Source: Peptococcaceae bacterium CEB3
Lineage (GTDB): Bacteria; Bacillota; Desulfitobacteriia; Desulfitobacteriales; Desulfitobacteriaceae
Reading direction: 5' to 3'
Assembly (NCBI GenBank): GCA_001029295.1
Contig: LDXJ01000050.1
Coordinates: forward strand, 1 to 64,000
Length of the DNA stretch: 64,000 bases
Part shown: positions 3,291-49,285 of the stretch, one piece after another
Numbering within the stretch: the first letter of the stretch is position 1
How the letters are laid out: every line of letters starts with the position of its first letter
The notes under the pieces: model-generated
The model's input: only the letters and a program-made list of their open reading frames with translations
The model's database searches: none
Told to the model about the DNA's origin: nothing
Translations under genes and position numbers: made by a program

Positions 3291-4772
3291 TTAGAGCGGC
3301 AGTTCCACCCGGAAAACTGTTCCATGTCCTGCAACACTTTCCACACTGACGCGTCCCCCATGGGCCTCAACCAGGGATTTTACAATGGACAGGCCCAGAC
3401 CGGTTCCACCTTGCTCACGGTTGCGGGACTTTTCACCCCGGTAAAACCGTTCAAAGACATGGGGGAGATCCTGAGGCGAGATGCCGCTGCCGTTGTCGCG
3501 AACTTCCAGAACGAGAAAGGAACCGGAACCAGAACCGAAAGCGCGGGCGGAGGTTTTCCCGGAAGGCAGGTCTGAAGCGAAAGGATGGAGGATCAGTTCA
3601 ATTTCCCCGGTCAAGGGGTCGGTGTAATGGACGGCGTTTTGAAAAAGGTTTAGAATGACTTGTTTCAGGTGTTGCTTGTCACAAGAGAGGTAGCCGGGGC
3701 CGTGAATTTCTACCTTCAGGGAGCGCTTTCCTGCCAAAAGGTGAAGTTCCGGCTCCATAGCTTTCAGCAGGTCGGCCAGTGAAGTTTCTTCTTTGTTCAA
3801 GGTGGGCTCACGGTCGAAACGGGCTAAGAGCAGAAGTTCATTCACGAGTTTGATCAGTCGTTCCGATTCCATGTGCATGCTTTGCAAGGCAGAATGCAAT
3901 TGATTCGGGTTATCCTCGGCCCCAAGAAGGAGAACTTCGAGAAAGCCGTGCAAAGCGGTTAAGGGAGTGCGGAGCTCGTGCGAGGCATCGGCCACAAAGC
4001 GCCTCAGCGTTTCACGGGCTTCCTTTTCCCTGGCGAAAGCTGTCTCCAGTCTGGCAAGCAAGGAATTGAAAGAATGAGCCAGGCTGTTGAGCTCGTCCGT
4101 TTCCTGCGAGGGCAAGCGGTCCTGTAAGGTACCGGCGTCCATCCTCTCCAGGGACTGAATCATTCCGGAGAGAGGAAAAAGCAAGCGGCGGATTAGAAAA
4201 CTGAACGCCAAGCCACCCAAGAGCAGGGTTACCAGCGCTCCCAAACCATAAACGGCCAGAGACCCGCGCAGAATGTCTTCCGTGGGTTTGAGAAAAGTGC
4301 TCGCTTGAATCAGATAGGCCGCTTTTCCGGGAGGACCGAAGCGTAAGAGTACGACCGTTTCCCGTCGCCCTTGATTGTCCAGGGCTATTCCGGACCAATC
4401 CGGTCTGCTGCCAGGCATAAAGAGGCTTTTATATTGTTCAGGAGTTAGAACAGGTACAGAGTGCCGGTGATCTTCCCCGGGACGAAGGGGCTGCAGGGTA
4501 CCGTCCTTGCCGACCAGGACTAAGGAAACGTCCGGGCCCAAGAGTTTGGGCAAGGCGGATTGGGCGGCAGGGGAGCCGGCCGCAAGTTGATCCCAGACCT
4601 GGGGACCAATAGCGCGAATCTGATCTTGCAGATTTGCGGCGGCCGTGCGATTTAGGTATTCCTGCATGACGGTATACTCAAAAAGCCCCATGGTCAGGAG
4701 GAGGAGGGCAAGAAGCAAGAGAGAGCCGCTGAGCAGTCTGAAACGAAACGAGCGGAGCACCCTGCGGATCAT
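3291..4772 (-). CDS. Membrane sensor histidine kinase (HAMP, HisKA, HATPase_c)
   Basis: Sensor partner of the response regulator at 4902-5585. Visible layout: TM1 about residues 13-35, an extracytoplasmic domain of about 135 residues, TM2 about 171-195, HAMP about 195-250, then HisKA with the phospho-acceptor His265 in [14 protein letters not shown], and a complete HATPase_c with N box [15 protein letters not shown] and [13 protein letters not shown]. At 493 residues it is full length. It sits 129 bp downstream of the regulator on the same strand, the usual order of an OmpR/PhoB-type pair. The stimulus is unknown; the adjacent secreted DUF5666 protein suggests an envelope signal. Confidence 0.95.
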
Positions 4773-12678: not shown

Positions 12679-13653
12679 ATGAAGCATGGTAAGAGATTCA
12701 GCCTGAAGAAGTTCATGGGTTTTGTCGGTTTTAATATTGTCTTTGCTGCCTTGCTGGCCCCCTTCATCGTTTTCTACGGGCCCTTTCAAGCATTGAAAGT
12801 CATGGCTGTAGGCTCCATCGCTCTTTCGCGCCACCCACAGGTAGTGAGAGCCTTTCTTTCCCAAGCTGAAATTAGCAAGATTACTCATGAGTATGACGCC
12901 TTGGGAGTGAACACCCAAGCGAATGTTGTCAGTAAACAGGTGACTGCCGGCTCTACTAGCGGTGTTGTAATCCAAGACATTAAGGGACAGTCGTTTAGAG
13001 GAAAGGTCATGCTGATTAAAGATCCAAAACGGATCAAAGTCGCCGTGACCAACCGGCTGGGCAAGGCCGGAGAAGTGCTGACGCATCTTGTTCAACAGAG
13101 TGGAGCCGTGGCCGGGATTAATGCGGGGGGGTTCAACGGTCCCGGTTGGGGAGGGAACGGAGCTTTTCCCGAAGGCTTGACCGTGCACGCGGGGAAGCTT
13201 GTTTATAATGACATTGGGAGCAAAACAGCGAAAGATCTCATCGGGATCAATGATCAGGGAAAACTAGTCATCACTCCCATGTCGGCGGACGAGTTGGCTG
13301 CCCATCATATTCAGGAGGCGGTAACTTTTTACGGCCCAACTCTGGTCGCCAACGGGAAGCCGGTCGTGGCCGGAGATGGAGGGATTGGCATTGGGCCCCG
13401 GACGGGAATCGGTCAAACAGCGGACGGGACGATTATTCTTGTCGTGATAGACGGGCGTCAGCCGACCTGGAGTTGGGGCGCCACCGCTCGTGAACTAATG
13501 AATGTCTTCCTGCAGTATCACGCGGTCAATGCCGTTAACCTAGATGGCGGTTCCTCCTCGGAAATGGTTTATCAAGGTAAGATCGTCAACCGACTCTGGG
13601 ATATCTTCGGGGAACGCTATATTCCCACGGCTTTTGTTGTTATGCCGAAATAG
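12679..13653 (+). CDS. Phosphodiester glycosidase family protein (NAGPA domain)
   Basis: A 324-residue protein with an N-terminal membrane anchor (FMGFVGFNIVFAALLAPFIV, residues 13-32) and a complete NAGPA domain from about residue 115. Motifs are AVAGINAGGFNGPGWGGN, FYGPTLVANGKPV, GPRTGIGQTADGTIILVVID and the hallmark VNLDGGSSSEMVYQG. Members hydrolyse sugar-1-phosphate diesters; mammalian NAGPA uncovers mannose-6-phosphate, and bacterial members act on wall or exopolymer phosphodiesters. GGAGG lies 11 bp before ATG 12679. Unlike the paralogue at 9821-11494, the active-site loop is intact. It is the last gene of the envelope cluster. Confidence 0.88.
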   Translation: MKHGKRFSLKKFMGFVGFNIVFAALLAPFIVFYGPFQALKVMAVGSIALSRHPQVVRAFLSQAEISKITHEYDALGVNTQANVVSKQVTAGSTSGVVIQDIKGQSFRGKVMLIKDPKRIKVAVTNRLGKAGEVLTHLVQQSGAVAGINAGGFNGPGWGGNGAFPEGLTVHAGKLVYNDIGSKTAKDLIGINDQGKLVITPMSADELAAHHIQEAVTFYGPTLVANGKPVVAGDGGIGIGPRTGIGQTADGTIILVVIDGRQPTWSWGATARELMNVFLQYHAVNAVNLDGGSSSEMVYQGKIVNRLWDIFGERYIPTAFVVMPK

Positions 13654-13661
13654 ACGATAGA

Positions 13662-13691
13662 TTGACAAAGAGTGGCACGGCAAGCTATAAT
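13662..13691 (+). promoter_or_regulatory. Near-consensus sigma-A promoter for a small RNA
   Basis: TTGACA (13662-13667), 18-bp spacer, TATAAT (13686-13691), immediately followed by a structured non-coding segment and a strong terminator. Confidence 0.8.
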
Positions 13692-13697
13692 GTAAGC

Positions 13698-13792
13698 AGT
13701 GGTAGGGTCCGGGCTCAGGCCGGGGATTACCACGGAGGTATAAGGCAACGACGCCGTACTGTTGCGGGCGCGCAACAATACGGCGTTTTTTT
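13698..13792 (+). ncRNA. Candidate free-standing small RNA of about 95 nt
   Basis: The segment is bounded by a consensus promoter and a strong terminator and has no plausible coding frame. The predicted 5' hairpin pairs GTGGTA (13699-13704) with TACCAC (13728-13733), enclosing CCGG-GCTCAGG-CCGG. A linker with GGAGGTATAAGGCAACG follows, then the terminator ACGCCGTA-CT-GTTGCG / CGCAAC-AA-TACGGCGT with seven T residues. GCAAC at 13745-13749 could compete with the terminator for GTTGC, so an attenuator is possible. The next gene starts 300 bp downstream, so it is not an ordinary cis leader. It matches no RNA family I recognise. Confidence 0.65.
13751..13792 (+). terminator. Strong Rho-independent terminator of the small RNA
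   Basis: A 14-bp stem in two blocks (ACGCCGTA and GTTGCG with their complements), a GGCG loop and TTTTTTT. Confidence 0.9.
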
Positions 13793-13900
13793 AATGCGTC
13801 ACAGCCTCATCCCCTTAACGGTTGAGCGTTGAATACAGGCCTTTTAGGGCGCGAAAACGGCTTTTGGCCCAAAATAATCCTGGCGGTACCCTCAATCAAG

Positions 13901-13977
13901 TATAATATACCCTATCAACTGGTAGTAACATATAACGTCAAGTCGCCACAGAATGAGACGACTGGTTACAACATATA
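13901..13977 (+). promoter_or_regulatory. -10 box and 43-bp spaced direct repeat upstream of gntR
   Basis: TATAAT at 13901-13906 is followed by two related 17-mers starting ACTGGT and ending AACATATA, at 13918 and 13961. Sites just downstream of a promoter before a HutC-type regulator fit an autoregulatory operator. No good -35 is seen. Confidence 0.4.
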
Positions 13978-14097
13978 CCGACATCTTTTTCCTGCAAGCC
14001 GCAATTGGCAGAAGAACTAGAAAATGAGTGAGAAGTTCGAAAACAAGTTCGAAAACAAGCGAGAAATGCGAAAACGGGCAAGAAGGAAGGCTGCTTA

Positions 14098-14844
14098 ATG
14101 CTTCAAGTCAATGGTTCTACTCCATATTATCAACAAATAAAGCAGTACATCCGTAACCTTATCCAAGAGGAAGGATTGCAACCCCATGAACAAATACCGT
14201 CAGAGCGCGAACTCTGCGAGCAATTTAGCTTAAGTCGTACGACGATCCGCCTGGCTTTAGCCGAAGCGGAAAAAGAGGGCTTGGTCTACAGAGTTCACGG
14301 CAAGGGCACTTTCGTATCACTTCCCAAAATTGATCAAGGCTTATCCGCCATAAACAGCTTTGAAGACACGATGCGCTCCCGCGGCTTAAAGCCACGGATT
14401 GAGGTTCTGTCTGTCGAGGCCTTGCCGGCGGATCTCGTGATCAATACGATTCTTCAGTTGGGTCTGGATGAGGAACTGACGAAATTGACTTTGTTGGGCT
14501 ACGCGAACGAGGAACCCATCGTGCACTATGAGTCCTATCTGAGCCAGAGGATTGGGTCTACCGTGGCGGACGAGGCTGTCCAACGGGCCGGGGCGGGCTT
14601 GTCTTATTCCACGTTCGAATTGTACACGGATCGCTGCGGGCTCAAACCTGTGGTAACGAATCAGACATTTGAGGCGGCCCTGGCCGACCCTGAGACAGCC
14701 AACTTGTTGCAAATCCAGGAGGGTGCGGCCGTGTTCCTGATCACATCACTTGTCTATACTGAGAACCAGCGACCGATTGAGTACAAGACGGCTCATTACC
14801 GTGGAGACAAGTTTAAGTTTAACGTCAGCAGAAAGCATTTTTGA
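14098..14844 (+). CDS. GntR-family transcriptional regulator, HutC/UTRA type
   Basis: A 248-residue regulator with an N-terminal winged helix (PYYQQIKQYIRNLIQEEG, PSERELCEQFSLSRTTIR, YRVHGKGTFV) and a C-terminal UTRA ligand-binding domain (about residues 90-240, ending RPIEYKTAHYRGDKFKFNV). HutC-type regulators sense the substrate or an intermediate of the pathway they control. It precedes an eight-gene operon in the same direction, separated by a 360-bp repeat-rich gap, and is the obvious candidate regulator of that operon. ATG 14098 follows GAAGGAAGG. Confidence 0.93.
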   Translation: MLQVNGSTPYYQQIKQYIRNLIQEEGLQPHEQIPSERELCEQFSLSRTTIRLALAEAEKEGLVYRVHGKGTFVSLPKIDQGLSAINSFEDTMRSRGLKPRIEVLSVEALPADLVINTILQLGLDEELTKLTLLGYANEEPIVHYESYLSQRIGSTVADEAVQRAGAGLSYSTFELYTDRCGLKPVVTNQTFEAALADPETANLLQIQEGAAVFLITSLVYTENQRPIEYKTAHYRGDKFKFNVSRKHF

Positions 14845-48283: not shown

Positions 48284-49285
48284 CTAAATATGGCTTTCTT
48301 GCCCAGCCAGAGCGCTTTTGTCATAGAGATAGCCGGAGGGCCGGAAAAACCCTGCCACCTTGGCTCGGGGAGATAGGACGACATCCCTGAGGACTTCGTC
48401 ACGGAAGGTGGGGTAGCCGGTGCGATCGACGATATATCCCACATGTTCCTTGGCCAAGGTGCGGTCGATATGGCGATCGATATAGTCATAAAGGTTTCGG
48501 CAGATTCTAAGGACGGTTTCCCTGTCAGCCCACTCCAGAAACGGTGCGGCCAGGCGGGGGTTTTTCTTTCCGGTCCGGCCCATGATCACGACGCGGAAGT
48601 ATTGGCCACCGCGGCTCCAAGCCCCAGTCGGACATTTGAGGACACACTCTCCGCAGCCCAGACAGCGTTCGGCATCGCGTTGGACTTTGAAATTGTGAAA
48701 GCGGAGGGCACCGGTGGAGACTTGCCGGCAGTTTTTGACACAGGCCTGGCAGCCGATGCAGCGCGAAGGATCATAGATGGGCTCGACCTGGCCGATGATC
48801 CCGATGTCGTGCAGGTGTACCTTGACGCAGTCGTTGGGGCAACCGGTGACAGCGATCTTGACGTGGGGGTTGTTGGGATAAATCGTCTTTTCGATGTCGT
48901 AAGCCAAGCTGGTGGTATCGAAGACGGCTTGGGGGCAGACCCGGTTTCCGATGCAAGCGACGACATTGCGGGTGCCGGCCGCCGGATACCCTTCTTCGGG
49001 CGCGGGGACTTGCACCCCCTGATCGACTTCGAGTTCGCGGATCAAGGGCGCGATGAGGGTATTGACCTCGGCAGTCGCTGCCAGCGCAATGCCCGGGATT
49101 TCAAACCCTTGGCGGGTGGTCAGGTGAACACTTCCGTCTCCGAAACGGTCGGCAATCTCCTGAAGGATGGGAAAGAATTTGGCCGGGAGATGTCCGCCTG
49201 GCACGCGGATGCGCAAGCAAGTCAGATGGCGGTCCTTGGTAACACGCCAGGCGTTTTTGGCCAGCTTCTTAGTATTTAATGACAT
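48284..49285 (-). CDS. asrC: Anaerobic sulfite reductase subunit C (siroheme/Fe-S)
   Basis: The catalytic subunit of AsrABC, reducing sulfite to sulfide in the cytoplasm. The siroheme-[4Fe4S] ligands are NVVACIGNRVC and AVTGCPNDCVKVHLHDIGII. Two ferredoxin-type clusters follow: CIGCQACVKNCRQ and CLGCGECVLKCPTGA. The N-terminal part (HLTTRQGFEIPGI) is the nitrite/sulfite reductase ferredoxin-like half. I take ATG 49285 after GGAGGAGG; a longer frame to 49309 precedes that site. It is the last gene of asrABC. The length of 333 residues is normal. Confidence 0.95.
   Translation of the reverse strand: MSLNTKKLAKNAWRVTKDRHLTCLRIRVPGGHLPAKFFPILQEIADRFGDGSVHLTTRQGFEIPGIALAATAEVNTLIAPLIRELEVDQGVQVPAPEEGYPAAGTRNVVACIGNRVCPQAVFDTTSLAYDIEKTIYPNNPHVKIAVTGCPNDCVKVHLHDIGIIGQVEPIYDPSRCIGCQACVKNCRQVSTGALRFHNFKVQRDAERCLGCGECVLKCPTGAWSRGGQYFRVVIMGRTGKKNPRLAAPFLEWADRETVLRICRNLYDYIDRHIDRTLAKEHVGYIVDRTGYPTFRDEVLRDVVLSPRAKVAGFFRPSGYLYDKSALAGQESHI

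Follow-up and report, generated by a model that had tools for sequence, protein, structure and literature searches.

A candidate species-specific small RNA at the 3' end of a glycosidase gene in Peptococcaceae bacterium CEB3

The 64,000 bp of Peptococcaceae bacterium CEB3 DNA analysed here (the window) contain a perfect promoter between the stop codon of a phosphodiester glycosidase gene and the intrinsic terminator of that gene, and these two signals would delimit an RNA of about 95 nt. We give an even chance to the reading that this unit is indeed transcribed and is a candidate 3'-end small RNA of recent origin, specific to this species. It looks like an ordinary small-RNA candidate and not like a new RNA class.

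The glycosidase gene, which carries the unit at its 3' end, occupies positions 12679-13653 of the forward strand in the open reading frame list and encodes a NAGPA-type protein (PF09992, Pfam E = 1.9e-42) that is 92% identical to its Acididesulfobacillus acetoxydans orthologue. The gene's stop codon (13651-13653) lies 8 bp upstream of the -35 box of the promoter, in which TTGACA (13662-13667) is followed after an 18-nt spacer by TATAAT (13686-13691) on the same strand, a 12/12 match to the sigma-70-type consensus. The preliminary description had named a consensus promoter here; it is exact, and it is the sole 12/12 site in the window, with zero such matches in 60 dinucleotide shuffles of the window. 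Over the whole genome the pattern occurs at 46 sites, against 0 for a reversed control pattern, and what follows most of the 30 sites that were read downstream is visibly a protein-coding gene, a tRNA or an apparent T-box leader, so the sequence at 13662-13691 probably works as a promoter. We note that the genome has five NAGPA-type matches (the gene at 12679-13653 and paralogs on C41, C61, C64 and C17), and that A. acetoxydans also has five (one of them truncated and another only a fragment), which amounts to a small expansion of the family. Another perfect promoter of the genome (C46:64112 onward) leads into a short hairpin and terminator unit with no obvious gene, in surroundings that, judged by eye, look like a prophage with Rha/antirepressor-like and nuclease-like ORFs nearby.

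The RNA expected from this promoter (about 13698-13792) has a predicted fold of -46.1 kcal/mol (z = -5.7 relative to shuffles) that consists of a 5' hairpin and the terminator, joined by an open linker of 16 nt. The hairpin (13699-13733, forward strand, -17.6 kcal/mol) has a GTGGTAG/TTACCAC outer stem with TCC/GGG and GGC/GCC inner pairs, and so contains the GTGGTA/TACCAC 5' stem that had been described for the 95 nt; that no coding frame fits the unit is likewise confirmed. The unpaired, purine-rich linker GGAGGTATAAGGCAAC (13734-13749, forward strand) is the longest exposed stretch of the RNA. An AGGAGG had been reported in it, but its letters, CACGGAGGTATAAGGCAAC, hold a GGAGG that is preceded by C (CGGAGG). 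The full linker complement, with up to 2 mismatches, has 2 off-site matches genome-wide against 3 in the control; such sites are thus no more frequent than in the control, and no candidate target is named. A repeated GGCAACGACNCC element was also considered and was dropped, since its counts equal those of the reversed control.

No other terminator lies between the glycosidase stop codon and the -35 box, and the terminator at 13750-13792 is the sole one after the gene. At -26.1 to -26.4 kcal/mol it is the second strongest hairpin before a T-run on the forward strand of the window, which bears out the strong terminator of the preliminary description. It forms part of a conserved block on the forward strand (13739-13792) in which GGCAAC precedes the stem (13750-13787, -26.4 kcal/mol) and a T-run (13786-13792), and which is 90.7% identical over 54 nt to the sequence directly after the glycosidase gene of A. 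acetoxydans. Because it is the only terminator after the gene and is kept there in A. acetoxydans without the promoter, it most likely belongs to the glycosidase gene as that gene's own, ancestral terminator, and the block would serve both the gene and the small RNA. The orphan small RNA gene that had been proposed thus stands in part: it has promoter and terminator anatomy of its own and no Rfam match, but its conserved terminator is that of the glycosidase gene, and A. acetoxydans lacks both promoter and 5' hairpin at this locus. The unit is accordingly judged not to be free-standing, its terminator being that of the preceding gene and its RNA-specific part being confined, by this comparison, to one species.

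A. acetoxydans, of the same genus, holds the closest relatives of the glycosidase gene in a scan of named genomes. Its orthologous locus is 89.6% identical in the glycosidase gene, 90.7% in the terminator block 13739-13792, 87.7% in the region 13805-14024 upstream of the following GntR gene and 89.7% in the GntR gene itself. Between these flanks of about 90% identity, the forward-strand segment 13654-13737, which holds the promoter, the 5' hairpin and the GGAGG, has no counterpart. Its position is taken by about 36 bp of different sequence that aligns to the segment no better than shuffles do; the only local alignment to the orthologous locus is an unrelated one of 14 nt, and a BLAST search of the segment against the A. 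acetoxydans genome gave no match. By contrast, a second unit with a perfect promoter, hairpins and a terminator, which precedes a gene for a PTS glucose-type IIC-like protein (C53:32953 onward), shows about 91% conservation from promoter to terminator in A. acetoxydans, and the comparison therefore detects conservation where it is present. This second unit, which has no Rfam match at gathering score, resembles an antitermination leader, perhaps one of the GlcT/RAT type.

The motif TAGAGAG follows the stop codon in the A. acetoxydans locus, in two paralogs of the window's genome and in one A. acetoxydans paralog, so the TAGACGATAG found at that point in the window looks like a derived state. 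The simplest reading of the locus is that the window's lineage gained the promoter and hairpin and retained the ancestral terminator; loss of the promoter and hairpin in A. acetoxydans is less likely. The two species also differ farther downstream, where A. acetoxydans carries a stretch of about 110 bp with many simple repeats of the GAAGTCGAA type (L048 ~4060-4170) after the terminator and before the upstream region of the GntR gene. The window lacks this stretch; a similar simple repeat of the window lies near 14036-14060. Elsewhere in A. acetoxydans (3264225), a near-consensus promoter, ATGACA-17-TATAAT, lies about 30 nt upstream of a GGGCAACGACGCCGT terminator that is 78% like the window's; this site is about 400-700 bp from a fragment of a glycosidase gene and could be a rearranged copy (E ~0.02).

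Rfam at gathering score found nothing in the whole window but RNase P, which lies elsewhere, and a permissive scan of 13600-13900 yielded nothing better than chance miRNA matches (E of at least 1), in agreement with the earlier statement that the unit resembles no known RNA family. We note in passing an 87-nt tRNA-Ala(ggc) called by ARAGORN at 49173-49259, whose length is unusual for tRNA-Ala and which may be a misassigned tRNA. In the genome itself, its family and its order (74 genomes), a DNA search recovered, besides the locus, only the terminator of A. acetoxydans and, at a second A. acetoxydans site, a weak match limited to the terminator. A covariance model built from the single sequence and run over the 74 genomes of the order found nothing beyond the sequence itself, that same A. 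acetoxydans terminator and the window's own terminator on its reverse strand. The 5' half gave six matches of 19-31 nt in 398 genomes of the phylum (per-genome E 7e-4 to 4e-3), which is what chance would yield in so many genomes; these were rejected as homologues, since each lies within an open frame no shorter than 180 codons and looks coding. Plasmid and phage collections gave no credible match, and no homologue of the 5' hairpin was found in the 74 genomes of the order, or above chance in the 398 of the phylum. Glycosidase relatives were followed at 55 loci, and most of the checked Desulfosporosinus loci have another ORF directly after the gene, which makes them uninformative on the spacer. 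The promoter and RNA are thus, as far as these searches reach, not conserved among relatives, and the RNA-specific part appears in one genome only, so that selection on the RNA cannot be shown.

The next gene downstream (14098-14844, forward strand) encodes a GntR/UTRA transcription regulator and starts 305 bp beyond the terminator, which agrees with the gene-free stretch of 300 bp noted earlier. The region in front of it (13805-14024) is its own and is conserved, at 88% identity to A. acetoxydans, together with a TATAAT. Two direct-repeat-like sites before the GntR gene, CAACTGGTAGTAACATATAAC and GACTGGTTACAACATATACC (13916-13979), are conserved in A. acetoxydans and are likely its operator.

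The preliminary description had also offered an orphan riboswitch, in which, as an attenuator, the 5' hairpin would sense a ligand and GCAAC (13745-13749) would pair with GTTGC (13761-13765) as an antiterminator, in competition with the terminator, to allow read-through into the GntR gene. The pairing is possible and attenuator-like leaders do occur in this genome, for example before the PTS IIC gene at C53, but at -5.7 kcal/mol the competitor cannot rival a terminator of -26.4 kcal/mol, and there are no two exclusive folds of comparable stability. The 5' hairpin pairs with neither the competitor nor the terminator, and A. acetoxydans does without it while keeping the GntR gene and the region upstream of that gene. 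The hairpin also matches no aptamer family or other family of Rfam at gathering score and has no homologues in the 74 genomes of the order. The weak competitor, the uninvolved hairpin and the distance to a gene behind its own upstream region make a riboswitch very unlikely: an energetically plausible switch, a gene to control and a conserved aptamer are all missing.

Another account is that the promoter and hairpin are recent arrivals in a fast-changing spacer and have no function, any RNA being transcriptional noise that ends at the glycosidase terminator. Divergence of the spacer is complete between the two species, against 90% identity in the flanking genes, the glycosidase paralogs in the window's genome carry other, unrelated sequence after their stop codons, no homologues turned up in the searched genomes of the order or phylum, and the C53 unit is conserved where this one is not. 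Set against this, chance is unlikely to produce or keep a perfect promoter together with a stable 5' hairpin that starts at the predicted +1, and we regard the non-functional account as somewhat unlikely. Quite improbable, in our view, is that the unit is what remains of the 5' leader (promoter, hairpin and Shine-Dalgarno sequence) of a gene that was lost or never completed. This idea draws on GGAGGTATAAGGCA, which the genome contains once more, upstream of a 223-codon ORF, where it belongs to a genuine ribosome-binding site, GGAGGTATAAGGCATG; however, the match crosses the junction into the ancestral terminator block, to which ATAAGGCA belongs and where A. acetoxydans has TATTAGGCAACG, so the resemblance is probably a coincidence, and neither a start codon nor an ORF follows.

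Small RNAs that are made from the 3' ends of mRNAs by promoters of their own have been described, among them DapZ, MicL and, in the Gram-positive Lactococcus, ArgX (review PMC9438474). Like these, the candidate has a promoter at the end of a protein gene, upstream of that gene's terminator, a short predicted RNA, and a terminator in common with the upstream mRNA. Unlike these, it is a candidate predicted from sequence and has its promoter just past the stop codon and not inside the ORF; conservation among relatives, a supporting and not a defining feature of such RNAs, was not found in A. acetoxydans or the 74 genomes. The order of promoter, hairpin and terminator also recalls terminator-controlled leaders (riboswitches and protein-dependent antitermination leaders), but the candidate is without a gene to control, a credible alternative fold or a conserved sensor.

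In the favoured reading, that of a young 3'-end small RNA, a perfect promoter has come to lie between the glycosidase stop codon and the conserved intrinsic terminator of the gene; RNA polymerase would start near 13698 and stop at the shared terminator, and the RNA produced would be stable, about 95 nt long and capped at either end by a hairpin. Its role, if any, would most likely be base pairing via the exposed 16-nt linker GGAGGUAUAAGGCAAC. Hfq, whose gene is encoded in the genome (E = 1.2e-33), is a possible partner of the RNA, and its involvement would not be required. That the RNA is already a functional, newly born trans-acting RNA of one Acididesulfobacillus species, formed when a promoter and 5' hairpin were inserted before an existing terminator and acting through its GGAGG linker, is a more specific claim that we consider unlikely.

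If it is transcribed, the unit would be a clean example of the birth of a small RNA by a promoter placed before an existing terminator, with the "before" state kept by A. acetoxydans between two flanks of about 90% identity. The host is an acid-tolerant sulfate-reducing bacterium, and the gene next to the candidate RNA encodes a sugar enzyme.
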